DNA of 64,000 bases from Isoetes taiwanensis (lineage: Eukaryota; Streptophyta; Lycopodiopsida; Isoetales; Isoetaceae), in NCBI GenBank assembly GCA_021234155.1, contig JAJEKV010000113.1, positions 2,214,325-2,278,324 of the forward strand, given 5' to 3'. The notes under the pieces are model-generated. The model searched no databases and was not told the origin of the DNA. It saw only the letters and a list, made by a program, of their open reading frames with translations. Below, in pieces: positions 25,961 to 53,260 of this stretch. The position numbers were made by a program, and so were the translations under genes. Within the stretch, counting starts at the first letter, position 1, and the number at the start of each line of letters is the position of its first letter.

Positions 25961-25974
25961 CCAATGATCGTTTA

Positions 25975-26330: not shown

Positions 26331-26534
26331 AGTTATTTCTGTGATAACAGCAATTTTCCGGCCGGTTTGCTCTTCTGGATTCTGGATTAGGGCTTCACAT
26401 ATTCCCTTGACTTGCCCTAATTTGTTGGTCCGTTTGATTCAAGATCTGTCTAGGTACCCATGGACACTCTCAGGACATCCCCAACCCAACTCGAGAACCA
26501 GACCCGCACCTGACACTCGACCACGGTACTCGAC

Positions 26535-31704: not shown

Positions 31705-31802
31705 AACATGTTCAAACATTCTTCTTGCACCAGTTGCACCAAATGGCTTTCCAGCTATCTCCATTGCAGCCTTCACTTGCAACTCGGAGGTTTTATCATA
31801 CC
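31705..31802 (-). pseudogene. Exon-like piece abutting the LINE tail
   Basis: The minus-strand frame YDKTSELQVKAAMEIAGKPF followed by GATGARRMFEH is protein-like and is preceded by a splice-acceptor-like TGTAG. It touches the TTCTA tail of the LINE. It may belong to the same host gene as the piece at 25975. Family unknown. Confidence 0.3.
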
Positions 31803-33577: not shown

Positions 33578-33678
33578 ATGCAGTGATGACAGGACATTGC
33601 CCAATCTGTTCAAAGGCTTTCTTTGGGGACCTGGGTGGAGATGTAGTTAATCAACACATTGACAAGTGCCTCTCGCAG
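33578..33678 (+). pseudogene. Isolated UBZ-type zinc finger exon
   Basis: One 101-bp plus-strand segment follows TTAAAG and ends at CAG|GT. It encodes VMTGHCPICSKAFFGDLGGD then VVNQHIDKCLSQ. CPIC...HIDKC is the C2HC pattern of ubiquitin-binding zinc fingers in DNA-repair proteins such as SLX4, WRNIP1, SNM1 or RAD18 families. The Cys-to-His spacing of 15 is longer than the usual 11. No neighbouring exons of such a gene are recognised, so it may be a fragment. Confidence 0.45.
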
Positions 33679-34998: not shown

Positions 34999-35935
34999 CT
35001 TTTTAAAAATTCCAGATTGAGTCTTGTCATAAAATGGACGCTTCCCGCATAGCAGTATGTATGTTATGACATCAATACTCCATACATCAGATTCAGGCCC
35101 TGATCTCCTTTTCAAAACTTCTAGAGCAACATAATATGCACTGCCAACAATATCACAAAACCGCTTGCCTGCAAATAGTTGAGAAACCATCGTTAGATAC
35201 TTTTCGAGGAATCAAACAAGATTACACAGCTAAGGCTAATTGGACGAGATATGGGGGCCCTTTCTCCACTACTCATAGTGAACAAGATGTACCAGCTTTA
35301 GACATTCAGTTGTTTGCACATTCCTTTGCATACAAAACAGGCTTCTCATAATACAAGTTAATCGTTTTCAAATACTGTCTCAGGTAACAACAAGACCAAG
35401 AATTGTATCTACGAAAAAATATGTTGCCAGACGTGATGGCAACTTACAGTTCGCTGGTGAATCTCATCATAAACATTTGAATTGAATCTCAGAAAGTACC
35501 AGAAATGTTGTTGCCTATTTTGATATCCTCCTGGCTATGCTTTACTTAGTGACAATACAGGGGCAACATCTGCCCTGAAGTTGAGAATTGCCTATGCCAC
35601 TATGCTGCTTATAGGGTAGATCTACCTACCCATGTAAGAGTTTTCCCATTTTACATCAGTCTATACCAAGGAAGAGGAAAAGGAAGGGGCACTACCCTGG
35701 CCTTATAAAATCGGATAGACCAAAGTCAGTTGCTATAAGTCGTGAGTCTGGATCCTGTAACTTGAAAAGGAAGTTCTACAAAAGCATAGCAAAGGGCAAG
35801 GATGCAGCTAAAGTCCACCGACATCAAAATAGGACTTTACATTACCTCTGGCTTTAGATCACGATATACAAGATGGCAGCGAGCAACAACCGTTAACATT
35901 TTCCTGACAATGATTGCACAATGATGGGTCTTCTG
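34999..35935 (-). pseudogene. Calcium-dependent protein kinase (CDPK) fragment, three exons
   Basis: Minus-strand exons encode the middle of a plant CDPK kinase domain. About 35846-35930: IIVRKMLTVVARCHLVYRDL then KPE (catalytic loop). 35696-35775: NFLFKLQDPDSRLIATDFGL then SDFIRPG (DFG motif). 34999-35168: [20 protein letters not shown] then [20 protein letters not shown] (activation and APE region). This wording resembles the CPK16/18/28 group. Expected HRD is YRD, with residues before it missing; APE is ALE; and the invariant Gly in WSIGV is Asp. Exon phases between the second and third pieces are off by one. No N-lobe, no rest of the C-lobe and no EF-hands are seen. It is probably a dead duplicate. 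Confidence 0.75.
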
Positions 35936-37226
35936 CTAGGGCTGCTAGAGCTGGGCATTCTGCCACTTTGGTTGGTTGCAGAAGCTCAAATGTGATTGGA
36001 TGGTAAGAAACGAATGGAGTATTTTAAGCATATTATTCATCACAAAGAAGAAACATGGAATATTAATGGTTGATTGATTCCTACTGTAAATTCAAGATAA
36101 AGACGCATATTCTAATTGCAAGAACATAAAAGGGAATCCAAACATCGCAATGGGTGAAGAATGTACCTGATAAGCAAAAGGACTTTCTCAATGAACTGCA
36201 GCATGTAAGACCACATGAAAAGATGCAAATGTCATCAAAAGAAGTTTTTGTACGCTAGCCTTTTTCTAAACAGTTGTAGACACTTATAAGAGGTAAGTTA
36301 TCTCCTCCACAGAAGATGTCAGATGGCCTTTTTCGAAACAGTTGTAGACACTTATAAGAGATAAGTTATCTCCTCCACAGAAGATGTCAGAGTGCTCGCT
36401 TCTTTACATGTAATAATAAATGGGTCTAACTGGAAACACGGCTAAATTTTCATGAGAGCACAGCCTGAGTAATTACAAATGCTTATAAATAAACAAACTC
36501 TAATCCCATCTCTGTATCAACTACAGCTGATTGAGACCTTTATGGGGAAATGGATTGGAAATCACTTATAGCAGATGAAATTGATAAGCACGCAGTTAAT
36601 GCATTTTGGATGAAGCCACAGGGGAAAGCTATAGTCGTAATGGCCTTTCCATAGGGCCGTTGACCCTAAGGGATAACAATTTCAACGTGAATATGCCAAG
36701 TAAATGGGATGCACAGAACCATAAGTCCAGCATCTTATGTCCATATATAGGTTCACAAGTCATTGTTAATATGCATCGAAGATAAGTCAATATATGAAAA
36801 AAAATTAGGCCTAGACTACACTCAAGAATAGCCTAGCCCCCCTAAACTAAAACATCAATTCACTGGATTTATTGCGGATGTAATGGAAATTCAGCTCACC
36901 ATTCATCGTATAAGAACATTTGTCTATGACACATCAAAATAGCATCCCATTTCCTAAGCTTGCCAGGGAATATTTCATATTGCACCGGTAATCGCCACGA
37001 TGACTTTGTGTAAACAATAAAGGAATAATAAGAATAAATACAAATTTATGTTCCGCAATATGATGTCCCTGATTGCCTTGACGTTGTGGTAGTTGTAAGG
37101 CAGCATAATCAATCAAGAAGTGTAGTGGTGTAAAGTACATTTGAAGTGACATGCACAAAAGGTTGTGGAGAACCTGCAAGGTAGGTCGAAAGTGGAAAAG
37201 GAGAACCGATAGCACCATTGTTAATA
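35936..37226. other. Noncoding DNA with one short tandem duplication
   Basis: No gene recognised. It may hold further decayed introns of the kinase fragment. It includes the 68-bp duplication at 36258. Confidence 0.45.
36258..36393. repeat. 68-bp tandem duplication
   Basis: Two adjacent copies of a unit starting GCCTTTTTC and containing AGTTGTAGACACTTATAAGA differ at only a few bases, so the duplication is fairly young. Confidence 0.85.
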
Positions 37227-37502
37227 GGGTGAAAGCATGTTAGGGCCTACATAAAAAATTACCAAAAAGGTACTTTTCTGTGTACTTCTGTGCAAGTACA
37301 TAATTGTATTTTAAAGTACCTAGACTACAAGATTGACTAAAAGAAATTGTGTTATGTTCAAGAGTAGTAGTACATACATGTTGTAAGGTACTTTGTGATG
37401 TCAAGAAGATGTTAAGAACTCAAAATATATCATCATCTTTGACTACCCAGAGTATTTTCCAGGTAGTTTCCAAAACATGTAGGCCCTAACATGCTCTTAC
37501 CC
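37227..37502. mobile_element. MITE copy 1, 276 bp, 26-bp terminal inverted repeats, 4-bp target duplication
   Basis: The ends GGGTGAAAGCATGTTAGGGC and the reverse complement of the right end agree at 24 of 26 positions. AATA flanks both sides (37223-37226 and 37503-37506). A second copy in opposite orientation lies at 54069-54343; by eye the two differ at about one substitution and one single-base indel. No coding capacity. The 4-bp duplication and GGGT termini are shared with the 1569-bp element at 7545. Confidence 0.9.
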
Positions 37503-38160
37503 AATAGCATAGCCATTGATGTGGCATAAACCTAGCATATAATCAGCCGTGTCAGAAGCATGTATAGAGTTGCAAGTTTTGCCAATACAGGGAATCAGAA
37601 TCCTTCTTTATTAGAAACTCCGTGTAAACTCCTGCTGATGCTGAAAGGCAGGCCGACAATATACCAAACATATACCCCTGTATTGGTGCAGAGAAAAGTT
37701 TGCCACAGTCCGACTTGCCACAACCCTTTATCTGCAGTACAAGGTCAGAGAGATAACTCTATATGCCTTGTCCATACACCAGATTCCTCTTTGCCCATTC
37801 AAACCTAGCTTGTAGTTGTTCCAAGTGCCAATAAAATTATAGCTATCCACTGCAAATTTGAAAGCCTCCTTTTCAGAAAGGCCCTACAAGACAGATGCCC
37901 AAATGTCAGATCAAACTAGGTACTATATTTCGGTATTGGTATCTCACTATAATATTGTCTTACCGAAATAAGATGCCAATTGTGATAATTTTGAGATTTC
38001 CCATAATTTGGTATGTTGATGTGTCCACATATGTGAGAGTTGCAAACTGTACAATATTGTGAATGAGATAAATGATGGATGGAATTGTGTACAGCCGTAT
38101 GCTTTTCCAGTCTACAATCATTTTGATTATTAGAGAACTTTTACATTCTTTCCAAAGCAG
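37503..38160. other. Intergenic DNA with a possible minus-strand exon
   Basis: Around 37790-37890 the minus strand reads EKEAFKFAVDSYNFIGTWNN then YKLGLNGQRGIWCMDKAYRV, ending in stops after about 50 codons. This is protein-like but not a family I recognise. Confidence 0.3.
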
Positions 38161-38194
38161 CAGCTAAACTATCTAGCAGATATGGTTTTGCCCA

Positions 38195-40020
38195 TAATGT
38201 GCATAAGCAGCAATCATGGCATCAGGATATTATATTGGGTTTCAAACCTCCCATCTGCATTTCTTTGAATAAATCAACTGCAATGCTTTTGTTATCAAGC
38301 TGTAGATAAGACACAATCATGATAGTCCAAGAGTACACATTTTTATGGTGACAAAACCTTCTGTGCTTCCATTACAGACCCAGATTTACAATATATCTCA
38401 AGAAGTAAATTACCCATTATTCTCTCTTGCTGAAATCCATTTCTACTAACAGCAGCATGAACGCAGTTACCCAATACGAAAGCCTTTTCTTTGATACACT
38501 GCCTTAGAAGGGATGCATAAGTAGCAGCATCACTCTCCATTGCAGCCCAGAAAGATGTGTCAATTCCTGCTTTAGCGATCCACACTATCCAGAAATAGCA
38601 CCCGTTCTAGTGTTTGAAAAAGGATTATGGATAGACAGAATTTTGCTTGAATTATTGCTGATGCCTGATCCTGAATGTGCTGCTCATTCTTCTGCTAGAA
38701 CGAAATGAATGGACAAATTAGATACGATAATATTGACAAATACTAATAGAAAACAGAGACAAAAACATCCTCAGACTACGGAGATAGAGTGTCTACAGCG
38801 ACAAATGAAGCTCAATTCTCTTCTATTAAAAGCCGACAACTTGAAAAGGCTCCTTCGTGTAATATATAGAACAAACTTTCCTGTTTACACAGCCAAACAG
38901 TGTATTAAACACAGATTCATTTGGCATGACCAGTACATAGCATCCAAAAAGGAAAGTCTTTGCCAAATCATGACAAAGCTTGGGGCCCATCCCTAGTTAA
39001 ATCATAGACAGCTATGCACTCTGCTCCCAGGATACCACTAAAAGACTATAAATGATACAACAGTGAGTGTCATAATCCAAGCTCCAAGTTGTGAATCAAC
39101 AAAGACTCCAGTATTTGCATATTAAAAATAATAATAGCGAAATAAAAATGCGACCCAGGAATGTTGCTGATAACAGATATTATCAAGGCTCTTTCCAGCT
39201 TCAACATTACTTGCTCTTTTGTTGCAGATGCTGATTGTATTTCCTGAACACTGATAAAAAGCAAGGGGCGCATTAATGGTTTTGAAGTTTGAAAGGAATA
39301 CAAGTTCACATGAGGCCTTCTATGGTTCATATATTTAGCATCTGCCACTCACAGTGCTAGAATGCACATCCTAACGCCAGAGATCCCCACCTTGTGCAGT
39401 AGCTAAATTATCTAGCAGATATGGTTAAGATGCCTAACTATATGCCTTGATTCTACCAAAGTTGGAAGATCAGATTATAAATAGAAATAAGATCAAACAC
39501 TTTAGTGCTCTGGTCTATGCTAATCCTTATCAATACCGCTTTGCGCATCAAACAGAGAAATAAAAAGAACCTTAGCTGGCAATGGTCTAATGGGCTCATA
39601 AAGACAATACTACCTCCCAGATCTGGATCCAGAATGCCTTTTAAAACCAGATCTCATAATAACTTCACGGCTAAAACGGGTAAAATCTTTTGAATAGAGC
39701 TGAAACACTAACCTGGGAGATTTGATGAATGTGAGACATGCTATCAAACAAGAAATGGCAACACTGACAAGCCTTGAGTACATGCTACCAGACTTGAAAA
39801 GAAGGTTACCTTGTCTGGCTTAAAGTCATGCCATTGCATTTGTCCAAATAGTTCCATGGCCTCTTCCCAACAACATGATGAGCATATCCAGACACCATGG
39901 CATTCCATGAAAGAATATCTCGAGCTTGCATTTCGTCAAAGACCTGGCAGGCATTTACAATGCTGCCACATTTAAAGTATGTGCCTATGAAAGAGTGGCC
40001 AATGCAGATACCTACAATAA
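38195..40020 (-). pseudogene. Pentatricopeptide repeat (PPR) protein remnants, PLS type
   Basis: Minus-strand pieces in gene order: 39832-40020 encodes HSFIGTYFKCGSIVNACQVF and DEMQARDILSWNAMVSGYAH, then after a frameshift WEEAMELFGQMQWHDFKPDK. 38343-38585 encodes DAATYASLLRQCIKEKAFVL and MGNLLLEIYCKSGSVMEAQK. 38200-38315 encodes VDLFKEMQMGGLKPNII followed by a stop. These are unmistakable PLS-type PPR motifs, which bind organellar RNA in editing factors. The frameshift, stops and wide spacing show a broken gene. It overlaps a local duplication. Confidence 0.75.
39048..39237. repeat. Direct repeat copy 1 (about 190 bp)
   Basis: Matches 40362-40557 closely, from AAATGATACA to TTTTGTTGCAGATG. 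On the minus strand the second copy keeps an open hydrophobic frame (HSWVAFLFLYYYFKYTDTGV) that is broken here. A shorter shared tag CTAGCAGATATGGTT is at 38180 and 39415, so this area has had local duplications. Confidence 0.85.
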
Positions 40021-40219
40021 GTCCAACATTTATATGTTGAATATCTTCATCTTTTCGAAGACACTTATAGCTTCACTACTTTTGCCTCGCAGAGCAATGC
40101 CTTGAAATGATTATGGTCCATAAATTCAAATCATAAAATGACATTATTTCAAATACTCGATACTCTGCATTTAGCATACATGCCAACAAGCATACTTCAA
40201 TTAGCAAAGAAATTATATT

Positions 40220-40576
40220 TTAAAAATTGCATGGAAGGTAGACATTTAAAACCTGGTAAATGAAATAGCAAAACAGCCCAATAATGCAACCACACAACCT
40301 GCAAATTGCATAAAACCGTGCAAATTGAGCCAGCCTAAGAGCATCTGCAATCTGTGCAATTATAAATGATACAGTAGTGAGTGTCATAATCCAAGCTCCA
40401 AGTTCATATTGTGAATCAACAAAAACTCCAGTATCTGTATATTTAAAATAATAATAAAGAAATAAAAATGCGACCCAGGAATGTTGCTGATAGCAGATAT
40501 CATTAAGGCTCTTTTCAGCTTCAACATTACTTGTCCTTTTGTTGTAGATGTTGATTTGATTAAGGTTCGAATGCAA
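40220..40576 (-). pseudogene. Hydrophobic membrane-protein-like exon, direct repeat copy 2
   Basis: Includes the second copy of the direct repeat (40362-40557). The minus-strand frame has two likely membrane segments, WVAFLFLYYYF and AWIMTLTTVSFIIAQIADAL, then CRLCGCIIGLFCYFIYQ followed by a splice-donor-like GTTTTA. I do not recognise the family. It may be an exon of a multi-span transporter or chance hydrophobic sequence preserved by duplication. Confidence 0.3.
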
Positions 40577-40859
40577 GCAGATTGTAGATTAGAGAAACAT
40601 GGTAAACTTAGAGGATTGGCCGGAATAATCCTACTGAACCCTAAAAACTTGAACTGGGATTTGAAACCATGGGAAAATCTGGCCTAGCTTCTTACAGGAA
40701 CAGAGATCAATAAGAATTGCATAAAAAACCTATTTATATAGATGCTCACATGCATATGGATGTGTTTGACACATCCTAAAGAACCAACATTAATATGGCA
40801 TTTAAGATGCTGATATATGGATAGACCTCCAGATGTAGAATATCGTCATCTTTTTGTAG

Positions 40860-41315
40860 AATGGTAAGCAAAGCAGCCGTAAGAAGACCTTGCACGGTGA
40901 GTGGATGATAGTTAGCCATTGCATCCACAGTGTTCTCAAATGTTGCAAATTTCATTATAGTGTAGGGAACCTGCCGAGCCCAAAGAGGGCCGATCCCTCG
41001 ATAAAGCCCTTTCAATCCATCTTCAATAAAAGATCTATTCAATTCAATTCCCGGTTGAATTTGGATCTTCACCTTCACCACCTCGAACGGGCATAACGCA
41101 ACGTCTGCAATTAATTCAGCCGATGCAGAGGCTGCCAGGTAAATTGGAGTCTTGTAATCTGACGAAATGTTTGGGCCTGCTATGCTTGAGTAGAGATTTT
41201 TGAAATATTTGTAGAAGCCATGTTTGCAAAAGCCTTGTGCGCTGTAGCCGATTAGAGTGGGAGACCAGCGCCGAAGAGGGACTGAAATTCCATGCTCTTT
41301 GAGTATGACGCACAA
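40860..41315 (-). pseudogene. Mitochondrial phosphate carrier fragment
   Basis: The minus-strand frame reads VILKEHGISVPLRRWSPTLI, GYSAQGFCKHGFYKYFKNLY, then YLAASASAELIADVALCPFE, VVKVKIQIQPGIELNR and GLYRGIGPLWARQVPYTIMK. This is the middle of the mitochondrial phosphate carrier of the SLC25 family, an inner-membrane phosphate/proton symporter with signature PFExxKVK. The first repeat and the third repeat are missing, and the frame shifts at the N-terminal edge near 41290. It is intronless over this stretch. I read it as a truncated duplicate. Confidence 0.8.
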
Positions 41316-41399
41316 ATGGAGCAGAAGCTAGAAGATAAAAAACCAAACGAACTTTCTGCACCAGCACCAAAAGAATGGATCGACGCAAAGAGATATTCT

Positions 41400-42745
41400 A
41401 TCGTGCCGATTTTTGGCCAATTTTTAAATTTCGGTAGCCGTAGATCTTAGAAAAATAAGATCTTACGGTAAAGTTTAATGCCATGTCAATTTTTGATGAG
41501 ATGGACATGCTACGTGGATAGGCTAGAATTGCAAGAAAGGCTGCAAGCTTGGTTAGGCTGGCGTGCAAAAAAAAAAAAAAAAATCCTTTTTTTAAGTAGA
41601 AAAAATTTTTTTTTTGAGGGCCGTTCTCGACTCGCAAGTCGAGAAAGACCCTCAAGGCCCCTCTGATGGCCTTTCTCGACTCGCGAGTCGAGAAAGACCG
41701 GCCTTTCTCGACTCGCAAGTCGAGAAAGACCGCTCAGAGTGATAAATGCAGTTTTCAAGGCCAGAGGTTGAAGTGGGCCCTTCAAAGTGAAAAACGCAGG
41801 TTTGAGGCCCTTTCTCGACTCGTGAGTCGAGAAAGGCAGTTCAAAGTGAAAAATGTCATGTTGGGGCCCTTCAAACTGAAAAAATGCAGGTTGAGAAAGG
41901 CAATTCAGCCAAAAAAAAAAAAAAAAAAAGCCAGAGGTTATTTTTGTCAAAGCACCATTTTAAAATGGTTCACAAAATCTATTAAACTTATGCACTAAAT
42001 CTATGAAATCTATGAATTAAAGCATGCGTTAAACCTATGAAATGATTAAACTTTTGGAAACCTATACATTAATCCTATGAAAGCCAGTTCGAACATTACT
42101 TTTTTTAAGTATTATTTTTATTTATCACTGTACCCTGCCTTTTTTTTTTTCCGCCCGTGTTTAGAAATTTGAAATTTGATACATACCTTTTGGGCCTTTT
42201 CGATTTGGGCATGGCTCTATGCTTCTGCTGGAACACCTCCATCTCTTTAATTCTCCACATCCATCACTGTAATCGGGATTCAAATCTTCCCTATGTTAGT
42301 GCAAATCCAAAGCTCTGAAGCTCTCTGCATCGATTTGTTCGTGGGCCAGTTTAAGGCAGCCAATAACTTCGGCAGCCAATAACTTTGGGCCCAAAGATCG
42401 GGTATGGCATCGAATCTGCGAGGACGCCATAGCCATTCTTCTTCTTGTTCCGGTAGAAGCTTCAGAAAAGGCTGGGCTCGAATAAGTACCTTTCTTCGCT
42501 TTCTTGGATTCTTTCGACGGGCAGCTGCGAGGGAACAATAAATACGGCGAAGCTACTTTCCGCCATGGCCATAGATAATCATACACATCATTAATATGCC
42601 AGAAGAACGCAAGGCTTCGGCTCGGATATGGCGACTCTGCTTGATCTCCTCTTTGCATTGCAATGGGCAAAAGGGCAGGATCTTTCCGACGGATTAAGGC
42701 TGGAACTCATACACAAGGATTCAATCCTTACAGTCTCAGCCTTCT
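41400..42745. other. Repeat-rich DNA and short unassigned frames
   Basis: Contains the second palindrome cluster (41624-41834), A/T homopolymer runs near 41567, 41605 and 41912, and an AT-rich stretch to 42200. A 45-codon frame at 42404-42538 (MASNLRGRHSHSSSCSGRSF) could be an upstream exon of the alpha/beta hydrolase remnant but cannot be confirmed. Confidence 0.4.
41624..41834. repeat. Second cluster of TTCTCGACT palindromes, four copies
   Basis: Copies at 41624-41645 (centre CGCA), 41672-41695 (perfect), 41704-41727 (centre CGCA) and 41811-41834 (centre CGTG). The leader CCTTTTTTTAAGTAGAAAAA and GAGGGCC are shared with 32600-32660, so the two clusters derive from one family. Frames through them give repetitive SRLASRERP-like peptides, which are not genes. 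Confidence 0.9.
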
Positions 42746-43339
42746 TTGTCAGATCGGTTGATCCAGGCAAGGGAGAGAAGCCATGCCCGCGCAAAACTTC
42801 TCCAGTCGGGTATGGCGTCCAAGCTAAACAGTTTGTGCCAAGAACTCGAGCTTTCCCTCAGAACTCCGCCCCAAAAATTTCTCAGACGGATGCAGTCTGT
42901 ACCTTGGCCGCCATCTTTGCTTCCGATACTCTGGCATGCGCTTAAAAGGTACCATAAAGCAACATATACGGCAAGGTGAGTTGTGGCTATGGCGGTGCCG
43001 GAGCAGCTGATGGATTCTTCTACAAGCAAATGCGCCATTTTGGTCCTTCATGGCTTTGGCTCATCTCGCCTTGCTGTTATGCCAGGTACATCATATATTT
43101 GCTTATCATATGCCAGGATTGGGGCTAGAAGCAGGGGGGAAACAGATTTATTCTTCTTTAGGTAGCTGTGCGAAGAAGAATCCTACGCCAGAAGAAGAAA
43201 TCGGCCCAAATCAACTTTTAGAAATCTTGAAATTACAGGGGTATCCCATGATCTTCTCATAGAATTTGGGGTCCGGCTTGTATCTATAGATCAGCCTGGC
43301 TATGGCAGAAGTGACTGCATAAGAAACATGTTATTATAA
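42746..43339 (+). pseudogene. Plant alpha/beta-hydrolase fragment with an in-frame stop
   Basis: Exon 1 (to 43085) reads SKLNSLCQELELSLRTPPQK and FLRRMQSVPWPPSLLPILWH, then TGA at 42977-42979, then, still in frame, TSKCAILVLHGFGSSRLAVM. After an intron (GT at 43086, AG ending 43238), exon 2 reads VSHDLLIEFGVRLVSIDQPG then YGRSDCIRNM. HGFGSSR is the oxyanion-hole region and SIDQPGYGRSD the following strand of this hydrolase family. The catalytic Ser, Asp and His come later and are not present. A CGA-to-TGA change would explain the stop. It is a 5' gene fragment; the substrate is unknown. Confidence 0.65.
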
Positions 43340-43431
43340 TAGAAGGGCTTTTTGTGCTTCGATAATACATTGCTACAAATAAAGCGTCTATGCAAGGATT
43401 TTTCTGATTCGTTATGAATCCTGTTTTGCAG

Positions 43432-43621
43432 GATACAGGAGCAAGCAAGAAAGAACTAGAGGATGCATTTAAGAGCTCAAATGGAACTCAGATAGAAGCA
43501 CATATTCCCATTGAAGTGCAAACTAGATTTGTAAGCCAAAACAGAAGGAAGCTTGGCTTATTTAGAGAATGCGCTCCTTGCCATGTCAGACAAATTCTGG
43601 AGTCTGTTGCAAAGGAAGTAG
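43432..43621 (+). pseudogene. Exon-like segment, family unknown
   Basis: A TTTTGCAG acceptor and a TAG|GT donor bracket an open frame reading DTGASKKELEDAFKSSNGTQ, IEAHIPIEVQTRFVSQNRRK and LGLFRECAPCHVRQILESVA. Composition is convincingly protein-like. It is downstream of and on the same strand as the hydrolase fragment but is not part of that fold. Confidence 0.4.
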
Positions 43622-43828
43622 GTTTCCCAACTTTCGTGACTTATTTTTAAGAGCTTGGTCGGAAGGAGCAGTCCGGTAGTTCTTGCCCTCCTGCTCTCGC
43701 TTTTCTTGTTGTGTTGCCTTTAAAAATTCGTTTAGGATGCGCTTGCTACCGGTTGATCCAGGCAAGGGAAAGAATCCATGCCGGCGCAAGGGAAACAAGG
43801 GAAAGAAGCACACGAGGAATTGTGCCCA

Positions 43829-43850
43829 TTCTCGCCTGGCGAGGCGAGAA
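43829..43850. repeat. Variant palindrome with compensatory change
   Basis: TTCTCGCCT, GGCG, AGGCGAGAA has the same length and layout as the palindromes at 32496 and 41672, but one stem pair is C-G where those have A-T. Confidence 0.8.
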
Positions 43851-43857
43851 AAAACCT

Positions 43858-44015
43858 TTCTAATTATGCATTGTTTGAATTGTTTAATTATTTATTGTCT
43901 AATTAATTAATTATATTATTTAAACTAATTGTCTAATTATTATTATTGTCTAATCAAATGTAATTATATTATTAATTAATTAATTATTGTCTAATTAATT
44001 AATTATATTCTTTTG
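43858..44015. repeat. AT-rich low-complexity run
   Basis: Repeats of TGTCTAATTAATTAATTATA and related words; no coding potential. Confidence 0.9.
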
Positions 44016-44025
44016 TCATGTTTTC

Positions 44026-44315
44026 CTTTTGCTCCTCCTCATATCCCACCCCTTTTGCCCCTTTGCCCCTACCCATACACCCCAGCCCCTACCCATACAC
44101 CCATGCCCCTTTCCCTAACCCACCCTCTTTGCCCCTACCCATACACCCCAGCCCTTTTGTCCCATATCCCCCTTTGCCCCTTTGCTCTCCCTTTTTGCCT
44201 CTTCTCTTCCCCATGCCCCTCCCTTTTGCCCTTCCCCCTCCTCCCCTTCCTCTCCCCTCTCTATTTCCTTTGCCCTTTCCCCTTCCTCCTGTCTCCCCTT
44301 CCTTCCTACTCTTCT
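44026..44315. repeat. Pyrimidine-rich tract with a CCCCTACCCATACACC minisatellite
   Basis: About 290 bp almost without G on the plus strand. CCCCTACCCATACACC recurs several times in its first half. Strand asymmetry gives long spurious frames on both strands. The copia element inserted at its right edge within CTTCT. Confidence 0.9.
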
Positions 44316-44894
44316 TGTTAGTTAATGCTAAGACTTTCAAAGATAGAGAACTTGAATCCTTTATGAATTGACACAAGCTATATGCATAAGCAATATGAAT
44401 ATTTAATCAAACCTTAGTCTTTAGCTTAACACATATAATATCTGCAATGGTCGGGCATTCACTGATAGTCTTAATGACTTCAAACATACAGGAACTAAGA
44501 ACGATTGCTATAACAGATGTGTTTTCACAATACAACTCCGCCTTATTTTATCATTCCGGCCAACTACAAATGCAATCTAACAACACGATATATGTAGCGG
44601 TTCTTCGACGGTTATGCCGTCTCAAGTGGCCGACACACCTTCTTGCTATTTCAAATATGGAATGGGCTCCAAAATCTTCTTATCCCCTAACACTTAAAAT
44701 AGCATATGATATCGGAAATATGACTATGCCTTTTCCCTTTCATAATAAACAATCTTCACCATGATATGGTATAGGGAATTTCAATTTTCCTTGGTAACCC
44801 TGTAATTACAGACAAAGATATTTACAATTTCTTATACTTGCATGTTCCTTATGCCCATGCTTAGAATCATGTGATGAATCATTCATTTCCAACA
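44316..44894 (-). repeat. Copia 3' LTR
   Basis: 579 bp, preceded on the element strand by the polypurine tract. Differs from the 5' LTR mainly around 44575-44605 and 44811-44845. Confidence 0.95.
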
Positions 44895-44909
44895 CTCCTC
44901 CTTCAGCAC
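44895..44909 (-). promoter_or_regulatory. Copia polypurine tract
   Basis: On the element strand GCTGAAGGAGGAG directly precedes the 3' LTR, the position of the plus-strand primer. Confidence 0.8.
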
Positions 44910-45110
44910 ATGATTCAATAACTTTCAATGCTGATTTAAACTGATAGAATTTTCCTTCAGGTAATGCCTTTGTGAAGATGTCTGCAACTTGTAGTGCTGT
45001 GTTCACATATATCATCTGCACATAATTCTTAGATGCCAAATCTCTAATAAAGTGTATATTCAATTCAATGTGCTTCGCTTAACCATGGTCTCTTGGATTT
45101 TTGACAATTG
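44895..45110 (-). pseudogene. Copia RNase H C-terminal part, cut off by a stop
   Basis: After the long pol frame ends at 45126, the expected continuation appears in another frame: IAIVKNPRDHG, a TAA, then AKHIELNIHFIRDLASKNYV and ALQVADIFTKALPEGKFYQF. One frameshift and one stop codon therefore disrupt the RNase H end. Confidence 0.8.
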
Positions 45111-45125
45111 CTATACAGACTTTGG

Positions 45126-47982
45126 CTATCGGGCTAAGATCTTTGTTGGCCCTGCTTTTGCTTGCAGTTCAACTCCTCTAAAAGCCGCCTTTAACCATGA
45201 TATTTCCTTAGCTGCTAAAGAGGATGCTGCATATTCCGCCTCAGCTGAGCTCATTGCTATAGCACTCTGTTTCTTGCTCCTCCATGAGATTACTCCTCCA
45301 CCTAAGAATACAGCATAGCCTGATGTTGATTTTCTGGAAGCCAAGTCCCCTCCCCAATCTGCATCACTGTATGCATATAATTGTAAATCACTTGAATCAT
45401 AATTGATTCCATGATGTTTTGTCCCTTTCAGATATTTTAAGATCCTCTTTCCTGCCATCCAGTGATTTTTAGTCGGATTGTGACATCTCCTGCTTAATAC
45501 ATTGACTACATATGAAATATCTGGTCTGGTATTATTAGCCAGATACAACAAACACCCTATTAATGCACGGTATGGTATGTTTTCCATCTCTTTGATGTCC
45601 TTATCTGTGAGAGATGTTTCTGCAGTAAGTCTATGCCCTGGCACTATAGGTGTTCTAGCTGGATGTGCTTCATGTAAATTAAACCTTTTAAGCATATTAT
45701 CAATATGCAAACTCTGCTGTAACTTTAGAGTCCTTTTCTCCCTATTTCTGTCCACCTCTATTCCCAGAAAATATTTTAATTCCCCTAGATCTGACATTTT
45801 GAACCTTGAATTCAATATTTCTTTGCACTTATTCAAAACTTCAATTGCATTTGCTGCCATGATGCAGTCGTCCACATAAAGAGCAATGATGCAAAACAAA
45901 TTTCCAGTTTGATATCTATACAAATTTCCATCATTCTTTAACTTCTCAAATCCTTGGTCTCTGAGAAAGTTGTCTATGCACAAGTACCATTCTCTGGGAG
46001 ATTGTTTGAGTCCATAAACTGCCCTATTGAGTTTCCAAACCATGCCTGTACCTTGCTCATAACCTGGGGCTTGTTTCATGAAAACTTTCCCTTCAAGTTT
46101 TGCATTTAGGAAGGCCGTTTTAACATCCATGTGGTGCAGTTCCAAGTCTAATGCATTTGCAATGGATAGCAGAATTCTCAAAGTGGTAAGTTTCACGATT
46201 GGGGAATACGTTTCATCATAGTCCCTTCCTTTTTCTTGGGTGTATCCCTGTGCCACAAGACGTGCCTTATACCTTTTACTCCCATCAGAATTTGCCTTGA
46301 TTCTATATATCCATTTACTTCCTATTACATTATGTTCAGCTGGGAGTTTAACCACATCATATGTTCCAGTTTCTCTAAAAGATTCCAGCTCATCATTCAT
46401 GGCAGTCAGCCATTTATCCTTTTCATCACTTGCTATTGCCTCATCAAATGTTTTTGGGATTATAACATCATCTAGAATAGCCATTATCTGGTCTGTGTCA
46501 AAGCCAAGCTTTTCAAGTCTTCTGCTCTTGCCATAATTATTTCTGCCATACAATTCTGGTTCAAGTTTGGCCTCCTCCATCAATTTTTGTGCTTGAGTCT
46601 TTCTTTTAGCAACTACCTCTTGACCCTTTTGTTGATCATCAAGGTGATTGTCTTTATATTCTTCATTTTCTATTGCTGGTCTGCTGCCCTGGTCACTTAC
46701 ATCAATTTCAGAATCTGAATCAATATCTCTTTGCTGGTCTGATATATCAGATTTAGCATGGTCAAGTTTGGCAAGGTCATTTACCCTTTTACCTTTCTTA
46801 TATCTATCCTTATACAATGTATCTTCGTCAAATAACACATCCCTGCTGATTATTATTTTCTTGCTTTCAGGGACATAAATTCTATATCCCTTAGATTCCT
46901 CGTCATAACCGACAAGGAATCCTATCTCTGCCTTATTGTCTAACTTCTTCCTCACTTCATTTGGGACATGAGCATACACAAGACATCCATAAGTCTTGAA
47001 CATTTCATAATTCATATGTTGATTTTCCTTTGACCATAGAAGTTCGGGCACATTACCTTTAGTACTGGAGGATGGGAGCTTGTTCTGTACTAATATAGCT
47101 GTCTTTAATGCCTCCTCCCACAAGTAGTTGGGCAGACCACTATTTTTTATCATGGATCTTACCGCATCCATGATAGTTCTATTCTTGCGTTCTGCTACTC
47201 CATTTTGCTGAGGACTGTACCTGCAGGTTAATTGTCGCTTGATTCCTTTTGCCACACAAAAAAGTCTGAATTTAGCTGATAAATACTCTCCTCCTCGATC
47301 AGATCTGACACATTTTACTTTTCTTCCTGTTTCTCTCTCCACTTCTGCCACGTACTGTTTGAATGCAGTTAGGGCTTGAGATTTTCGTTCCAGACAATAA
47401 CATTTGCATTTCCTGCTGTGATCATCAATAAAAGTAATAAAATACCTCTTATTTGTTCTCCCTTTCACGTTCAAAGGGCCACACAAATCAGTGTGAACCA
47501 ATTCTAGTACCTCTTTGGCTCTCGTTTTTGCTTTCACGAATGGTAATCTGTTTAATTTCCCAAGTATACACCCTTCACATAAGAACTTGTCAGCTTTTAT
47601 ATCATTGCATTTAATCCAACCCTTATTAGCAAGATATTTTAGATTATTACAGTGTGTATGTGCCAACCGGTTGTGCCAAAGTTCGAACTCAGCTGAACTA
47701 ATAGTATTCACACTGCTACATATCATGCTATTCATTTGAAACAAGTTTCCACAACGTTTTGCACGAAACTTTATATCATTTCCAAGGTAGATATTACATT
47801 CATTTGATTCAAAGATAACCCTGTAGCCCAAATCAACTAACTGACTGACAGAAATTAAATTCTTAATTATGGTGGGAACACACAAAACATTCTCTATGTC
47901 AACAATATTTCCATCTAAATCCATAAGCTGCAGCAGCCCCCTCCCTTGTATTTCTTGAAGACTCCCATTTCCTACTTGAATT
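45126..47982 (-). CDS. pol: Copia pol: integrase, reverse transcriptase, RNase H
   Basis: About 950 codons are open on the minus strand; the first ATG is at 47924, but homology begins upstream at HSRRIQVGNGSLQEIQG. The integrase zinc finger has HNRLAHTHCNNLKYL and CEGCILGKL. Its catalytic core has DLCGPL, FITFIDDHSRK, RSDRGGEYLS and QQNGVAERKNRTIMD, giving the D,D,E residues. Reverse transcriptase shows HHMDVKTAFLNAKLEGKVFM and IIALYVDDCIMAAN (YVDD). RNase H shows YAYSDADWGGDLASRKSTSG and IAMSSAEAEYAASSLAAKEI. This frame is +1 relative to gag-protease, and no in-frame join exists. Confidence 0.95.
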
Positions 47983-47985
47983 CGT

Positions 47986-49100
47986 CTAGAATGAGTGGCT
48001 GCTATTCTTGAGTAGATCAGTAGATTGGACTACTGATCTTTCAGCTCCACTATCAACTACAAGAGGATCACATTTGTTAGAAATATTATTCTTGTCAATA
48101 ATTGCACAAGCATGAATTACCTCTTCATCATCCTCATTTTCAGATTTTTCTTCCTCCTTTTCCTTTGTAACATAAGTTTCAGATGGTTTCTTCCCTCGTC
48201 CTCTGCCTGAATTTCCTCTACCTCTTCTGAATCCATTGTCTTTATATTTTTCACGTCCATAGTCTTTAGGAGTAGGGCACTTTGCTGCCACGTGGCCTTT
48301 TCCTCCACATGTGTAGCAGTTGATCTGCTTTTGCAGTTTAGGGCAGTCCCTTTTGAAATGTCCATTTTCATGACAATTATAACACATGATCTTATCTCGT
48401 TTACCAGCAAATAAGATTTCAGTTGTTTCTTCCCCTTCCCTCATTATTTTTTTCTGCTCAAATTCTGTCCTGAGAATGTTCTCTGCTTCTTCCCTTGATT
48501 TGCTCATATTTCGGATGAATAAGGCAAGATTCTCACTGTCACTTACAGCTCTAGAAATTTGAAGCACTTGGCTTCGTTCTGATACATTTACACCAGCTCC
48601 AGATAAATCAGCAATGATGTTATCGAACTTGTTAAAAAATTCTGTCACATCTCCATCTTCCCTTAGTTTTAGACCCCTTAATTCATTTTCAAGCAAGTCT
48701 ATCTGTGATGAGGTCTTTTCTTCATAATGTTTCAGTAAGAAACACCACATTTGCCTAGGACTTAAATTCCTTAACTTAAGTCTGATTGTGGGACTGACCT
48801 TACAGCAGATAATTCCTTGTGCTTCTTTAGCCTTTGCATGCAATGATCTACCAGCTCCCTGACTAGTCCCTCAAAGATTTATTCTGGGGCTCAGATAACA
48901 TTTGACCTCATGTTCACAGAACCTTCAGAAACTGACCTCGTTATGGTGTTTGCATTGATGTCACCATCAGGATCAACAAGACTCCAGAGATCCTCCACCT
49001 CCAATACATGCTTCACAGCATCTTTCCACACTTGGAATCCTGGTCCACCATTGTAGACCTCCACAGTGCTCAGCAATGTTGCTCCAAAACGACTAGACAT
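47986..49100 (-). pseudogene. gag: Copia gag and protease, interrupted
   Basis: The ATG at 49100 starts SSRFGATLLSTVEVYNGGPG then FQVWKDAVKHVLEVEDLWSL, the copia gag N-terminus. Stops near 48891 and 48860 and a frame change separate it from the main gag frame, which reads HAKAKEAQGIICCKVSPTIR and YEEKTSSQIDLLENELRGLK. Two CCHC zinc knuckles follow (CYNCHENGHFKRDC and CYTCGGKGHVAAKC), then an RG-rich basic stretch and the aspartic protease LVVDSGAERSVV. The frame ends at 47986 just as pol begins in another frame. Gag would form particles and bind element RNA. Confidence 0.9.
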
Positions 49101-49128
49101 GATAATAAATTGCTCCTGGTCTGATGAG

Positions 49129-49146
49129 CCTGCTCTTCGATACCAC
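49129..49146 (-). promoter_or_regulatory. Copia primer binding site
   Basis: Directly inside the 5' LTR the element strand reads TGGTATCGAAGAGC. The first eight bases match the initiator tRNA-Met site TGGTATCAGAGC; the rest fits with a two-base insertion. Confidence 0.7.
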
Positions 49147-49722
49147 TGTTAGTTAATGCTAAGACTTTCAAAGATAGAGAACTTGAATCCTTTATGAATT
49201 GACACAAGCTATATGCATAAGCAATATGAATATTTAATCAAACCTTAGTCTTTAGCTTAACACATATAATATCTGCAATGGTCGGGCATTCACTGATAGT
49301 CTTAATGACTTCAAACATACAGGAACTAAGAACGATTGCTATAACAGATGTGTTTTCACAATACAACTCCACCTTATTTTATCATTCCGGCCAACTACAA
49401 ATGCAATCGGCCAACACAGATATGTAGCCGGTTCTTCGACGGTTATGCCGTCTCAAGTGGCCGACACACCTTCTTGCTATTTCAAATATGGAATGGGCTC
49501 CAAAATCTTCTTATCCCCTAACACTTAAAATAGCATATGATATCGGAAATATGACTATGCCTTTTCCCTTTCATAATAAACAATCTTCACCATGATATGG
49601 TATAGGGAATTTCAATTTTCCTTGGTAACCCTGTAATTCTGTACAGTATATTTACAGTACTTATACTGCATGTTCCTTATGCCCATGCTTAGAATCATGT
49701 GATGAATCATTCATTTCCAACA
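49147..49722 (-). repeat. Copia 5' LTR
   Basis: 576 bp with the same TG...CA ends as the other LTR. It should carry the element promoter on the minus strand. Confidence 0.95.
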
Positions 49723-49994
49723 CTTCTTTCTCCACCACCCCCCTTTATTTTCTCGGATTGTCATGTGTAAATGTTATTCTTATTTTATCAAGGAAAAATT
49801 TAATAATGATTCAATGGCAACTTACCTTTTTTTTGCATGAGTCCCATTTTCTGTCTGAGTCTCAAACTTCGAGATTTGGCCCACTTTAATTAAATGCGAC
49901 TTCAAATTAAATGACTAGATAAAAAATAAATTACCTCTACATGAACAATTATCTATAAAACAAATTAAATGACTACAAATTAAATAAAGAATAC

Positions 49995-51370
49995 CTTTGA
50001 AATGCCTCTGTACTGCGATGCCCTATAACTTTCATGCCAATATTAATAGGTACACCAGCTCGCGACAGCCTAGAAACTAGTGTCGTTCGTCCACTCTTTC
50101 CACTGAAAGCACCATCGACTCCTATAAGTGGACATCTTACGTCCACTGACCCTATGCTTTACATTATACCATGCCATCCAGAAATAGTTTCAGAAATTAC
50201 AATTCAGAAATCAGAAATTCAGAAATTCAGAATTACAAAAGGAAAGTACTTACCATCTTACGTGGCGAAACTATTGCTTATTTGAACAACCAGTCCTCAT
50301 CAGCGCTTGTGCATGGATAGTGGCGAAAGAATTGTTTGAAGGTCACAATCACGTCATCTTCATAAACACGAAGAGGCATCCAAAAGGACTCTTCTTGGTA
50401 CCTATCCATGCTCACGTCATATTGCTTTGAAAGTCTCTCATTATATTCCACAAACTCCTTTCCGTTTTCAGCTCCTATCTGAAAATCTCCCACCTTCAGA
50501 CCTTCCAACTCTTCCTGGCCCCTAATAGCGAATCTGGATACACAGTAAAAGAGCAGCCTCTTTTGCAGACCAATGGAATGATGTATTCCATGGTCGACAT
50601 TAGATAAAAGGGCTTCCTCATTTGCAAAAGAGATTTCATCTACTTTCTTTCTTTTCTTACAAACCCCTGGTGTCATCCTTGACCTTCTCATTGCAGCAAC
50701 ATATGCAAGCCTTGCTCTCGTGGACACAACACTATATTTAATATTAAACGAAAATTCTTCCACACCAGTTTCTGCCTGTGCTCCTGCTGACGTCAAATCA
50801 TGACTCCAAATCTTCTAAACAAATATTGAAGCCTAAAAAAAAAGGAATGTCAGAATTATATAAAAAGGAAATTCAATTAAATGTTTTTACTTACGTTTCA
50901 GATGGGAACATCGATCCATCTAGCTTCACAACTTGAAGCATGAACAACTCCAACATGTCTGCGAACTCCTTTAAAAGCAATTCTTCAACTTTCTTATCAA
51001 TAGCAATCTTTGAATGGACTCTCCAACTGTCAAAGTGCCTCCTTGCCCACTGAATTTTTGCCTCAGACTTGCTAATCCCTCCGCTACGAACTTCTTGCAA
51101 CAAATCATTATCTAATTCCAAAAAAGGAACTGCTAGTTGTTTCCCAGAATTCTCCTTCTCATTTTCACATGGAACAAGCACACTTAGATGGCCATTAGAT
51201 TCCGCTTCTTCGAGATATTTGGTAATTGCCTCCTTACAAAACTCATCTTCAAAGCTAGCATCTTCATCCTGCAGGTTAGTTATATCACATAAAGTGGAAA
51301 TTTCTGAACTAACATCAGCTTGGGATATATGCAGATCAAAGCTTGGCTTAGAACTTTGACTCGAATCCAT
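49995..51370 (-). pseudogene. Crypton-type (DUF3504-like) tyrosine recombinase, three exons, interrupted
   Basis: Exon 1 (50895-51370, ATG at 51370) has an acidic Ser-rich N-terminus, then KIQWARRHFDSWRVHSKIAI and ELFMLQVVKLDGSMFPSET, the core-binding domain. Exon 2 (about 50254-50832) continues LQYLFRRFGVMI, then after a TGA and frameshift ARLAYVAAMRRSRMTPGVCK, KRLLFYCVSRFAIRGQEELE (first catalytic Arg) and GKEFVEYNERLSK. A stop follows DEDWLFK. Exon 3 (49995-50121) has DGAFSGKSGRTTLVSRLSRA and GVPINIGMKVIGHRSTEAFQ then RY. This gives the second Arg (in KSGR, where HxxR is usual), the GH and the nucleophile Tyr. Such enzymes cut and rejoin DNA in Cryptons and occur domesticated in animal ZMYM/QRICH1-like genes. 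The disruptions suggest loss of activity. Confidence 0.7.
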
Positions 51371-51635
51371 GCCTGCAAGCCTCCAGGCAGCATGCTCAGA
51401 ACCTCCAAATAACAGATAAAAGACTAGTAGATGAAATTCCATGATCCAACCTCCAAAATCTTCCAGTACCATCTTTTTCCTGTATAAGAAAAAAAAACAT
51501 GCATAAGAACCCTAAGATCACATATAAGAATGAAAACTAACATGCAGTAATCTAAAATCTACTAAATCTACTAAAAGACCAGCATGCAGACACTAAAATC
51601 TACAATAAGTGAAGCTTTATACCTTCTATGTGGTC

Positions 51636-53260
51636 ATTGTTATGAAGAAGCTGGGCTTTCCGTATGCTCTCGACAATGCTAATGAGTTTGCAACTTGCAC
51701 TGAATACCATCTCTTACATCTCAGGAAAGACGCTGGAAGTGTTCCTCGGCGTGCGTCTTTGTCTTCGTCATCAATGAAACCTTCTTCATGTTGCGTTAGG
51801 TTTCAGCGATATCCTTCTGTTGCGATGTAGTTGAGGCACTCTTCCTCAACTCTCGAGTATATATCCACTAGGTACTCATTGCATAGCCTATCGAGTTGTA
51901 GAAAATGGGGCTCATGCAGCAATCTCGTTCGGTACCAATCTAACTGTAACATTTTTTGTTGGTTTCTTTTTTTTTGAAGGACGTGAGACTCTTTTTATTG
52001 ACAAGAATAAAGGCGCAATACACAATGCACAGACAGGAATAAAACCCTAGTGGTTTCTTTTTTGTTGGTTTCTTGGATGCTATCCAAGAGTGTCGTGTGG
52101 AAAGAATAATGGATATTGAAGTAGTTCATATATGTGGGATGGAGAATACTTATGAATACTAGCTTTTGCTACACTACAGCTGATCTCGGCTCTATTGTGA
52201 TGCTATTGTTTGCGTGGACAATTGCGGCAAACTCATTCGATGCAGGTGCATCGGCAAGTGTTAGTTTTGCTGGACATGGATGTAACTCTTTCATTATCTT
52301 CAACTCTTTAAGATATGGGCTTGTAATATCTAATACTGAAGTGACTTTCATGATTTAGTTTGCCGGCACTTTCATTTCGTCACGGAGCTCAAACCGCCTT
52401 GTTTCATCGTATATGTACCAATGGGGAGTGCTATTTGGTTCACTTACATACAAAAGACGGTAATATGTTCGTCCCATGATGGCAACACATGTTGAAAGCT
52501 TTAGATCTACGAAGTTTTCCTTGACACCGAGCGCTGTGAAACAAAAGAGATTATTGATGATACGTGAATTTGAGCCAAATTCAGGTAGTGAGTAAAGATG
52601 TTTCAGCTTGCTAGGAAGCCCTCAAGTGGCGGGAGCAATCGATGGCCATTGTTGCAGCAGAATATAGGATTATCGGAGTCAAGCATTTCAATCTGACATG
52701 TTTCGCATCTTCTGTTCCATTTCAAAAGCTCATAACCCACAGGTTTAATGTTTTGTTCCATGAGATTGATTTGACGTCGCCAATGGCGTGCTGCGGAACT
52801 AGTGTCCAGGCAATCTGTAAGTAAAGCGGGCATGATGTAGGTTTCTTGTTCCACAGGGACTTCACTGATTAGTGGAATCTCTGTGGAACTATTATGACCG
52901 GTTGACGTTGCATCTGCATTAGAAATGGTATCCGCTACTATCTGCAGGATGCATCAACTTTTTGGACCTCTTCATCTCTATCACACAACTCTAGTCTAGA
53001 TTGCCAATCATGCCTATGAAAGTGAATTTAATCAAAAATAGTTTAAGACGAGACAAAAAATCTATTACTGATAGACTATTAAAAAAACTAAAGCATCAAT
53101 GAAAACGTGCCTGGGCCTTTTAGCTTGCTTGAACCTTCTCTTTCTCTGGCATTCTCTTTGATATTGTCTTTGATAAACTCGACGGTCTAATTGGCTACTT
53201 GATTCTTTTTCTTCTACAGTTTGTTCACTTTCTTGACTTACATTCTTGTTGGAACATAAA
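51636..53260 (-). pseudogene. Helitron RepHel N-terminal remnant
   Basis: Minus-strand pieces follow the order of a Helitron helicase-like N-terminus. 53110-53250 is basic (LDRRVYQRQYQRECQRKRRF). 52603-52854 has the CxxC zinc-finger CETCQIEMLDSDNPIFCCNN followed by GHRLLPPLEG. 52360-52600 has INNLFCFTALGVKENFVDLK, CVAIMGRTYYRLLY and HWYIYDETRRFELRDEM. 52169-52351 continues with ASNEFAAIVHANN. 51636-51960 has LLHEPHFLQLDRLCNEYLVD, GTLPASFLRCKRWYSVQVAN and LALSRAYGKPSFFITMTT, the start of the Rep domain. Stops, a frameshift and a retroposed insertion break it. The HUH nickase and helicase are absent. Confidence 0.75.
51975..52057 (-). mobile_element. Tiny retroposed 3' end with target duplication
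   Basis: TTTTTTGTTGGTTTCTT occurs at about 51952 and again ending at 52074. Between them, a poly-T run then GAAGGACGTGAGACTC on the plus strand is a short poly-A-tailed minus-strand retroposon of about 80 bp. It splits the Helitron remnant, so it is younger. Confidence 0.7.

Follow-up and report, generated by a model that had tools for sequence, protein, structure and literature searches.

Background

Cryptons, as set out in the account of Kojima and Jurka (2011; PMC3212892), possess neither terminal inverted repeats (TIRs) nor long direct repeats, and the catalytic tetrad of their tyrosine recombinase (YR) reads R-H-R-Y. The classification of land-plant transposons in a 2022 review comprises six orders, none of which is made up of YR DNA transposons (PMC9033089). 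The table of a 2015 survey places Crypton among the superfamilies in all groups studied, including land plants, with none described there (PMC4438587).

Here we describe a YR gene in a 64,000-nucleotide stretch of the Isoetes taiwanensis genome (contig JAJEKV010000113.1, positions 2,214,325 to 2,278,324; hereafter the window). This gene is one member of a repeated family of host DNA transposons, designated F1, moved, it seems, by a phage-integrase-like enzyme and unusual in its DNA ends. The adjacent Helitron piece appears to be there by accident.

Structure of the interrupted copy

Three insertions have stretched the YR copy in the window, a single element collinear with its relatives, across 29 kb. 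Its 5' portion (49903-51629, minus strand) comprises an upstream intron or untranslated part, exons 1 to 3 and part of intron 3. This portion is 88% identical to the relative L018 over 1.79 kb; homology to L004, L019, L039 and L043 begins at window position 51629, and in C1108 the element goes on for approximately another 540 bp, up to its left inverted repeat. Exons 1 to 3, all on the minus strand and with edges set by eye, were located by tblastn with L033, the only element that was read throughout. Exon 1 (50895-51370; MDSSQSSKPSF..) has 54% identity to its L033 counterpart (E 3e-45) and a GTAAGT donor. Exon 2 (50254-50832; ORF 50278-50814; 77% identity, E 3e-55) carries the Arg in IRGQEEL and the Lys in RLSKQ, contains one frame break and one in-frame stop and, unlike L033, has no internal intron. 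Exon 3 (49995-50174; 76% identity, E 8e-20) carries the KSGR and GH boxes and has an internal frame break.

Insertion I (31848-49902, no strand assigned) is approximately 18 kb in length, lies in intron 3, has 23-bp inverted ends (AAGTCGCATTTAATTAAAGTGGG) and contains a nested Copia (44316-49724) as well as host-gene fragments. Beyond it are the end of intron 3 and the initial, Tyr-bearing portion of exon 4 (RYDKTSELQVKAAMEIAGKPF; 31699-31847, minus strand), identified by tblastn and collinear with L018 2161-2312 at 90%. Exon 4 is itself split by insertion II (26203-31698, no strand assigned), which is LINE-like by eye with (TAGAA)n at one edge; a 229-aa frame inside it has no match in Pfam. 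The second part of exon 4 (..NDHWDDLEKQVAAQQ..GKTFHNCIFNF) and the 3' part follow at 25642-26202 on the minus strand. Insertion III (22295-25641, no strand assigned) interrupts the 3' part and is flanked on both sides by the direct repeat AAACAAGG (by eye). The right terminal region (22158-22294, minus strand) includes an inverted-repeat site at 22173-22192, with the core TTTACG at its outer edge.

This layout revises the three-exon recombinase of the earlier note: window-type copies have four coding exons. Nor does one four-exon model hold for all copies, as L033-type copies have five, with an extra intron of approximately 80-90 bases. The KSGR and GH motifs reported previously do lie in exon 3, but the Tyr assigned to FQRY does not stand, because the reading FQRY/S runs into intron 3. 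The true Tyr is that of YDKT in exon 4, displaced to approximately 31.8 kb by the 18-kb insertion.

The recombinase and its relatives

At least 208 matches to the YR were found in the host genome, far above chance (150 of 1704 first-look candidates scored). Conserved across copies are R, K, K-x-x-R, GH and Y, and the tetrad reads R-K-R-Y. Among distinct copies, 29 of 30 have the K and 28 of 31 the R, so that KSGR looks like a lineage feature, one of the two readings offered previously; the other, decay, is rejected on this conservation.

L033 encodes a YR of approximately 569 aa. Between its ends, frames of at least 90 aa are the YR exons, their overlaps and a single frame of 109 aa that matches nothing in Pfam; no frame of this size other than the YR matches Pfam, no frame for a reverse transcriptase or RNase H was seen in this element, and GCR1_C has no match in its protein. 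The F1 family retains at least one uninterrupted YR frame. Eight hand-picked YR pairs had an estimable dN/dS: five gave 0.03-0.13, the lowest value (0.03) resting on saturated synonymous change, and the remaining three gave 0.25, 0.39 and 0.53.

The Crypton/DUF3504-type reading of the recombinase was right in kind. When the YR core profile is compared with a host DUF3504-family protein, itself over the Pfam cut-off, hhalign gives a probability of 97.1 (E 6.5e-11, 172 columns; the A1 profile includes mosaic rows). The DUF3504 Pfam model itself has two matches only in this genome (L001 and L002). Scored directly, the YR reaches E 0.0034 and 17.6 bits with Phage_integrase, under the 27.1 cut-off, and E 0.03 with DUF3504, also under cut-off. 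In viral contigs, 185 stretches fit a pattern and none was confirmed as a relative.

Termini of F1 and F2

A 20-bp near-palindrome (ACGACACTTASGTGTCATCC) occurs near each end of F1 elements, the two copies being inverted relative to each other, with a foldback outside the left copy and a TTTACG core at the right end. At one mismatch or fewer, 78 such ends were found, versus 0 for a reversed-pattern control. Neighbouring ends less than 10 kb apart face inward in 19 pairs, outward in 2 and lie on the same strand in 0. The inward pairs are spaced 3.1-3.7 kb apart in 12 cases and 1.2-1.35 kb in 4, with 3 longer; the 1.2-1.35-kb relatives have the same ends as F1. In 30 right-end contexts, the successive positions of TTACG are conserved in 30, 30, 30, 29 and 27, and the flanks beyond are unrelated except for one four-member duplication. 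For long left foldbacks, the folding energies were -57.6 and -60.6 kcal/mol (z -15.7 and -15.4).

In a second family, F2, the ends are laid out in the same manner and the arms are different: GCAAC..GTTGC in place of the GACAC..GTGTC of F1, around a core common to both. At least 63 paired copies were found, with a median length of 251 bp; the F2 foldback stretch tested gave a z of only -2.8. One 2943-bp pair of F2 ends, on C1027 (11901175-11904117), brackets a YR exon. C177:56243 was dropped as an F2 end of a YR gene; since it is a 306-bp copy next to that gene, only C1027 counts as F2 with a YR.

Target sites

Empty sites were found for two of five F1 elements tested; for the other three, none was present among the best 40 of 816 candidates. 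Both empty sites indicate insertion at TTTACG-like hexamers with no clear target duplication. Left hexamers from nine sites agree with TTTACG in 40 of their 54 positions, a figure reached in 0 of 20000 random draws; left cores vary, and an outer boundary was chosen for just 10 of 16 left ends, by eye wherever several candidates existed. The two left bases adjoining the element are CG in six and TG in four of the 10 picked sites, and on the right C is kept in 29 and G in 27 of 30 contexts. The two empty sites are explained about equally well by a 2-bp CG target duplication. A TT constraint further out on the left (8 of 9 at two positions) argues against such a duplication, from few sites. A 4-bp CGTA duplication was set aside: TA follows the left core in all 10 picked sites, which had been chosen by such a pattern, and the matching right bases vary.

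The Helitron junction

Hallmarks of Helitrons are a RepHel protein with an HUH Rep and a helicase, a 5' TC and a 3' CTRR hairpin. The window piece (51630-53260, minus strand) does not show this full set, being cut inside Helitron_like_N at 51629, before the HUH motif. Its identification as a Rep N-terminal remnant on the minus strand, from approximately 53260 to 51630, was borne out by 71-89% identity to at least 31 genomic rows; the additional zinc-finger label comes from the earlier note. The remnant is decayed, with many stops in translation, and alone it scores poorly: a 50-aa stretch matches Helitron_like_N at E 0.084, and the frame at 52603-52953 has no match in Pfam. One of the 31 rows, L069, extends into Helitron_like_N (E 2.8e-30).

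The gap of approximately 270 bp previously placed between Helitron and recombinase does not exist, as the two homologies meet at 51629/51630. Scoring of 40 of 369 candidates from the host genome, all non-self, returned 31 rows with the Helitron only, nine (from eight places) with the YR only and none crossing the junction. Helitron-only rows end at query base 372, which is window position 51629, in 27 cases, at 371 in three and at 367 in one; YR-only rows begin at 372 in six cases, at 371 in one and further in for two. Among copies inspected, Helitrons L066, L067, L069, L071 and L074 run past the junction point, and YR copies L004, L011, L018, L019, L068, L070, L072 and L073 extend into their own 5' sequence. 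Because copies of each kind elsewhere continue in their own way, the window contains two truncated elements joined at a chimeric junction (51629-51630, no strand assigned). Both pieces are broken in the window.

Origin of the arrangement

The earlier note offered three explanations: a composite element, capture of the recombinase by the Helitron, and two remnants adjoining by chance. The last is the best fit of the three, given the junction rows and the differing continuations. A composite, in which both enzymes share one transcription unit and move together, would account for two immediately adjacent pieces on one strand; this order was sought elsewhere and did not recur in the 40 rows. With recombinase copies lacking the Helitron and Helitron copies lacking the recombinase, both breaking at or near 51629, different continuations past that point and both pieces broken, the composite is unsupported, largely refuted within the I. 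taiwanensis genome and now scarcely credible. Capture of gene fragments is known from Helitrons, and the window YR piece is without its left end, as a captured fragment carried here by the Helitron might be. Such capture is not required, because a right terminus of its own (22173-22192) is still present in the YR copy, and three insertions within the copy explain its gaps; the Helitron is moreover cut inside Rep at the junction, and no second copy of the arrangement appears among the 40 of 369 candidates scored. We therefore regard capture as unlikely.

Two further readings concern F1 itself. Its ends might be those of a cut-and-paste (DDE) transposon that acquired a YR gene and makes a short CG target duplication. 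The inverted repeats near the ends and the small non-autonomous copies resemble those of TIR transposons, the left CG or TG and the right C and G noted above would suit this reading, and MarCry of Fusarium is described as a precedent (PMC3212892). It is nevertheless improbable, if a shade less so than capture: the L033 frames leave only the 109-aa frame besides the YR, the left-flank constraint extends outward to TT, and F1 and F2 share a core and differ in their arms, as expected of YR sites. That the YR represents a family of host genes, domesticated and then multiplied through duplication, with no transposon involved, is as hard to credit as the composite. The low dN/dS in five of the eight pairs is in its favour, as are the domesticated DUF3504 genes described in animals (PMC3212892); the defined ends, deleted copies and mostly unrelated flanks speak against it, and the empty sites of two elements contradict it.

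The window YR is thus very probably a dead, multiply interrupted copy of the F1 DNA transposon, a family that would move by circle excision and reinsertion at a hexamer, and the Helitron remnant would have been joined to it later, by deletion or an illegitimate join. The YR would bind the palindromes and excise the element as a circle whose joint abuts GTCGTTTACG and TATATAGG; the circle may then reinsert through strand exchange with a genomic NTTMYG hexamer, so that the hexamer of the target ends up on the left and that of the element on the right. Element ends could double as targets, from which nested or tandem arrays would grow.

More tentatively, and just short of an even chance in our estimation, lycophytes may harbour YR DNA transposons that form an undescribed lineage of order rank. 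Such a lineage would combine a modular end code, made up of a shared crossover core (TTTACG / ACGTGG) and palindromic arms that differ between families and co-vary with the subfamily of the recombinase, with a left foldback that may be a folded single-strand site and with element ends as favoured targets, arrays growing like gene cassettes. With at least one uninterrupted frame, numerous small relatives, defined ends and empty sites for some elements, YR transposition would become testable in a plant; F1 and F2 would also provide pairs of recombinase and site that evolution has already separated into two or more arm specificities.

Comparison with known systems

F1 appears to work like a Crypton and differs in its termini and active-site motif. 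As described for CryptonF, S, A and I, these are DNA elements whose recognised enzyme is a tyrosine recombinase related to DUF3504; they have non-autonomous derivatives and a short direct-repeat core at their ends, and a circular intermediate has been proposed (PMC3212892). In F1, the conserved residues and the homology to a DUF3504 protein point to the YR as the transposition enzyme, and L033, the only element considered in this respect, is without reverse transcriptase. With regard to the 4-6-bp direct end repeat that serves Cryptons as recombination core, F1 has TTACG on the right (27-30 of 30 contexts), similar hexamers at nine left sites and empty sites for two of five elements, which a 2-bp CG duplication fits too. 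Unlike Cryptons, F1 has inverted 20-bp near-palindromes (19 inward pairs), a left foldback, and R-K-R-Y in place of R-H-R-Y, with box II reading K-x-x-R. The YR retrotransposons DIRS, Ngaro, PAT and VIPER are described as also combining a YR with end repeats, either split (SDR) or inverted (PMC6681497); they carry RT/RNase H besides the YR, for which L033, the element examined, has no frame. The YR aligns weakly (E 0.52) to the bacterial integrase of PDB entry 3nkh, over the box II, GH and Tyr region; in contrast to 3nkh, the F1 gene is spliced and eukaryotic, with KSGR rather than HILR in box II. The DUF3504 proteins of the host, L001 and L002, resemble F1 in that K replaces H in box II (KTLR).

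Junction of the Helitron and recombinase sequences

The tyrosine recombinase (YR) gene, on the minus strand, adjoins a Helitron Rep N-terminal remnant (51630-53260, minus strand) at 51629/51630, and the earlier note raised the possibility of a composite Helitron-YR element in one transcription unit. A junction query (window 51350-52000, minus strand; query base 372 is window 51629) was searched against the genome (1,658,258,908 bases, 1110 contigs) and gave 41 rows, including the window itself. The 40 others (the best 40 of 369 candidates) comprise 31 Helitron rows, ending at query base 372 (27), 371 (three) or 367 (one), and nine YR rows at eight places, starting at 372 (six), 371 (one), or 435 and 476 (two). 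None of these 40 rows crosses the junction, and the expectation that Helitron and YR recur together elsewhere is not borne out among them. All five Helitron copies inspected past the break run on, with the Helitron frame at locus L069 entering Helitron_like_N there (E 2.8e-30); past the break in YR copies their own 5' sequence follows, and the YR element on C1108 reaches approximately 540 bp further, to the left inverted repeat. Because copies of each kind continue separately past the break and no row crosses it, the window junction is best read as a join between two truncated elements: a Helitron broken off inside Rep, and a YR element broken off close to its 5' end. The missing 5' part of the YR element does not turn up elsewhere within the 64-kb window. 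The Helitron remnant holds a short insert (51965-52080; SINE-like by eye) with AGAAACCAACAAAAAA repeated on both sides; a 92-base match to this insert (93%) sits in locus L018, inside its YR element.

Four groups of blocks are collinear between the window copy and L018, at window 51620-49903, 31847-31699, 26202-25642 and 22294-22158. The gaps between them are insertions: the first (31848-49902, approximately 18 kb) has 23-bp inverted ends AAGTCGCATTTAATTAAAGTGGG, TTTG repeated at its edges and Copia inside; the second, between 31699 and 26202, looks LINE-like by eye, has (TAGAA)n at one edge and contains a 229-aa frame without a Pfam match; the third, between 25642 and 22294, is flanked by AAACAAGG. 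These insertions place the Tyr at approximately 31.8 kb, and the element's right end at 22173-22192. The 18-kb insert contains a mitochondrial-carrier fragment (40779-41327, E 7.2e-20), a protein-kinase fragment (34654-35211, E 1.5e-9) and a nested Copia LTR retrotransposon (44316-49724; LTRs approximately 580 bp, 97% alike). It is possibly a TIR transposon carrying gene fragments.

Ends of the F1 and F2 families

In F1, the family of the window copy, loci L033 and L034 end abruptly and are 95-96% alike across 3.4 kb. Allowing at most one mismatch, the 20-bp site ACGACACTTASGTGTCATCC has 78 occurrences (reversed-pattern control, 0). Among neighbouring sites, 19 pairs within 10 kb point inward, two pairs point outward and none have the same direction. 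Four F1 pairs are short, their ends just 1.2-1.35 kb apart. The three short elements read have the terminal and subterminal sequence common to full-length elements, and two of them (L039 and L043) match the window element in its 5' and 3' parts, but not in exons 1-3.

Read along the element, the right end keeps T, T, A, C and G in 30, 30, 30, 29 and 27 of 30 contexts, and the flanks beyond are unrelated, except for one four-member duplication. C1033:11640976-11671972, with three YR elements, and the end at C996:15594911 have a common right flank, which is a duplication that took YR elements along. On the left side, homology takes in a foldback and reaches as far as a boundary at TATATAGG or a like sequence; this boundary was chosen in 10 of the 16 left ends, by eye where there were several candidates. 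Two long left foldbacks have energies of -57.6 and -60.6 kcal/mol (z -15.7 and -15.4) and a short one a z of -8.8; a folded F2 stretch gives only -2.8.

The second family, F2, has the end plan of F1 with other arms: a 251-bp element at L087 has ATGCAACTTAGGTTGCAT arms, CGTGG on the left and TTTACG on the right. Left ends number 139 at one mismatch or fewer and right ends 133 as exact matches (controls 0 for both), with at least 63 pairs of ends (median 251 bp) among the places listed. One pair, on C1027, is 2943 bp apart and brackets a YR exon without internal stop. The F2 right part (approximately 100 bases) is found at 25 other places at 94-99% among the best-scoring matches listed, which shows that alike F2 copies exist, rather than how typical they are.

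Empty sites

Joined flanks of five elements (C179, C1028, C907a, C907b and C1020) were searched. Among the best 40 of 816 candidates, empty paralogues were found for two of the five: one for C179 (C135, 88%) and four for C1028 (C930, C1058, C978 and C1053, 81-89%); four of these five paralogues were aligned. The empty sequence AATTCCG-TACGTTG compares with the filled AATTCCG-TATATAGG...GTCGTTTACG-TACGTTG. Where the filled sequence reads TTTATG, the C1028 paralogues have TTTACA or TTTACT, an inexact match. C907a and C907b returned their own flanks only, with no empty site among the best 40 of 816 candidates, which were crowded by matches to the C1020 flank, itself the right end of an F2 repeat. 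Nine left hexamers (the F2-derived one left out) agree with TTTACG in 40 of their 54 positions; none of 20000 random draws from the window went above 27.

Recombinase gene and protein

The recombinase had been described as three-exon; window-type copies instead show four coding exons, and in L033-type copies exon 2 is split by one more intron, of approximately 80-90 bases. The joined L033 protein has 569 residues without a stop. Counted over the distinct copies among tblastn matches that reach each position, the box I Arg is kept in 27/28, Lys in 26/29, the K and R of KxxR in 29/30 and 28/31, the His of GH in 25/26 and Tyr in 25/25. Over 143-174 codons of exons 2-3, eleven hand-picked YR pairs gave dN/dS values of 0.03 (synonymous change 3.4, saturated), 0.05, 0.06, 0.10, 0.13, 0.25, 0.39 and 0.53, and three pairs gave no estimate.

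Direct scores are weak: L033 against Phage_integrase (E 0.0034) and window exon 2 against DUF3504 (E 0.03) are below the Pfam cut-offs, and the top PDB match, an integrase, has E 0.52. A separate family in the same genome exceeds the DUF3504 cut-off, and the YR profile aligns to it at E 6.5e-11. L001 and L002, the only two Pfam-model matches genome-wide, make up this second DUF3504-type recombinase family, with box II KTLR (again K for H) and seven stops and one, respectively, inside the match. At L031, a LINE reverse-transcriptase-like frame (1777-3342, by eye) begins inside a YR exon, where an 870-aa open frame is recorded.

Proposed mechanism and comparison with Cryptons

The element would leave as a circle, strand exchange by the YR would move it, and arrays would grow. 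By eye, four of 30 F1 right ends (L008, L017, L043 and L055), and the window's own, abut a TATA-foldback as at an element start, which suggests that element ends serve as targets. The data show the ends themselves, conservation, deleted relatives and empty sites in two sets, and we regard the whole account (ends, circle, strand exchange and array growth) as very probable. That the same ends are instead of DDE origin seems to us improbable.

In the titles and abstract openings of the papers listed we saw no Crypton or YR element described in land plants; preprints, subscription papers and Repbase were outside this scope. The word Crypton occurs in the plant papers PMC8245426 and PMC11764880. 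In a land-plant review (PMC9033089), DIRS is left out of land plants and the word Crypton is absent, and a term search of an Isoetes sinensis paper (PMC10541799) returned neither Crypton nor Helitron. Table 2 of PMC4438587 enters Crypton for all groups studied, land plants among them, which weakens any claim to a first record. Cryptons are described as lacking TIRs and having an R-H-R-Y tetrad (PMC3212892). F1 works like a Crypton, but it neither lacks TIRs nor has that tetrad, and for both reasons we do not class it as one.
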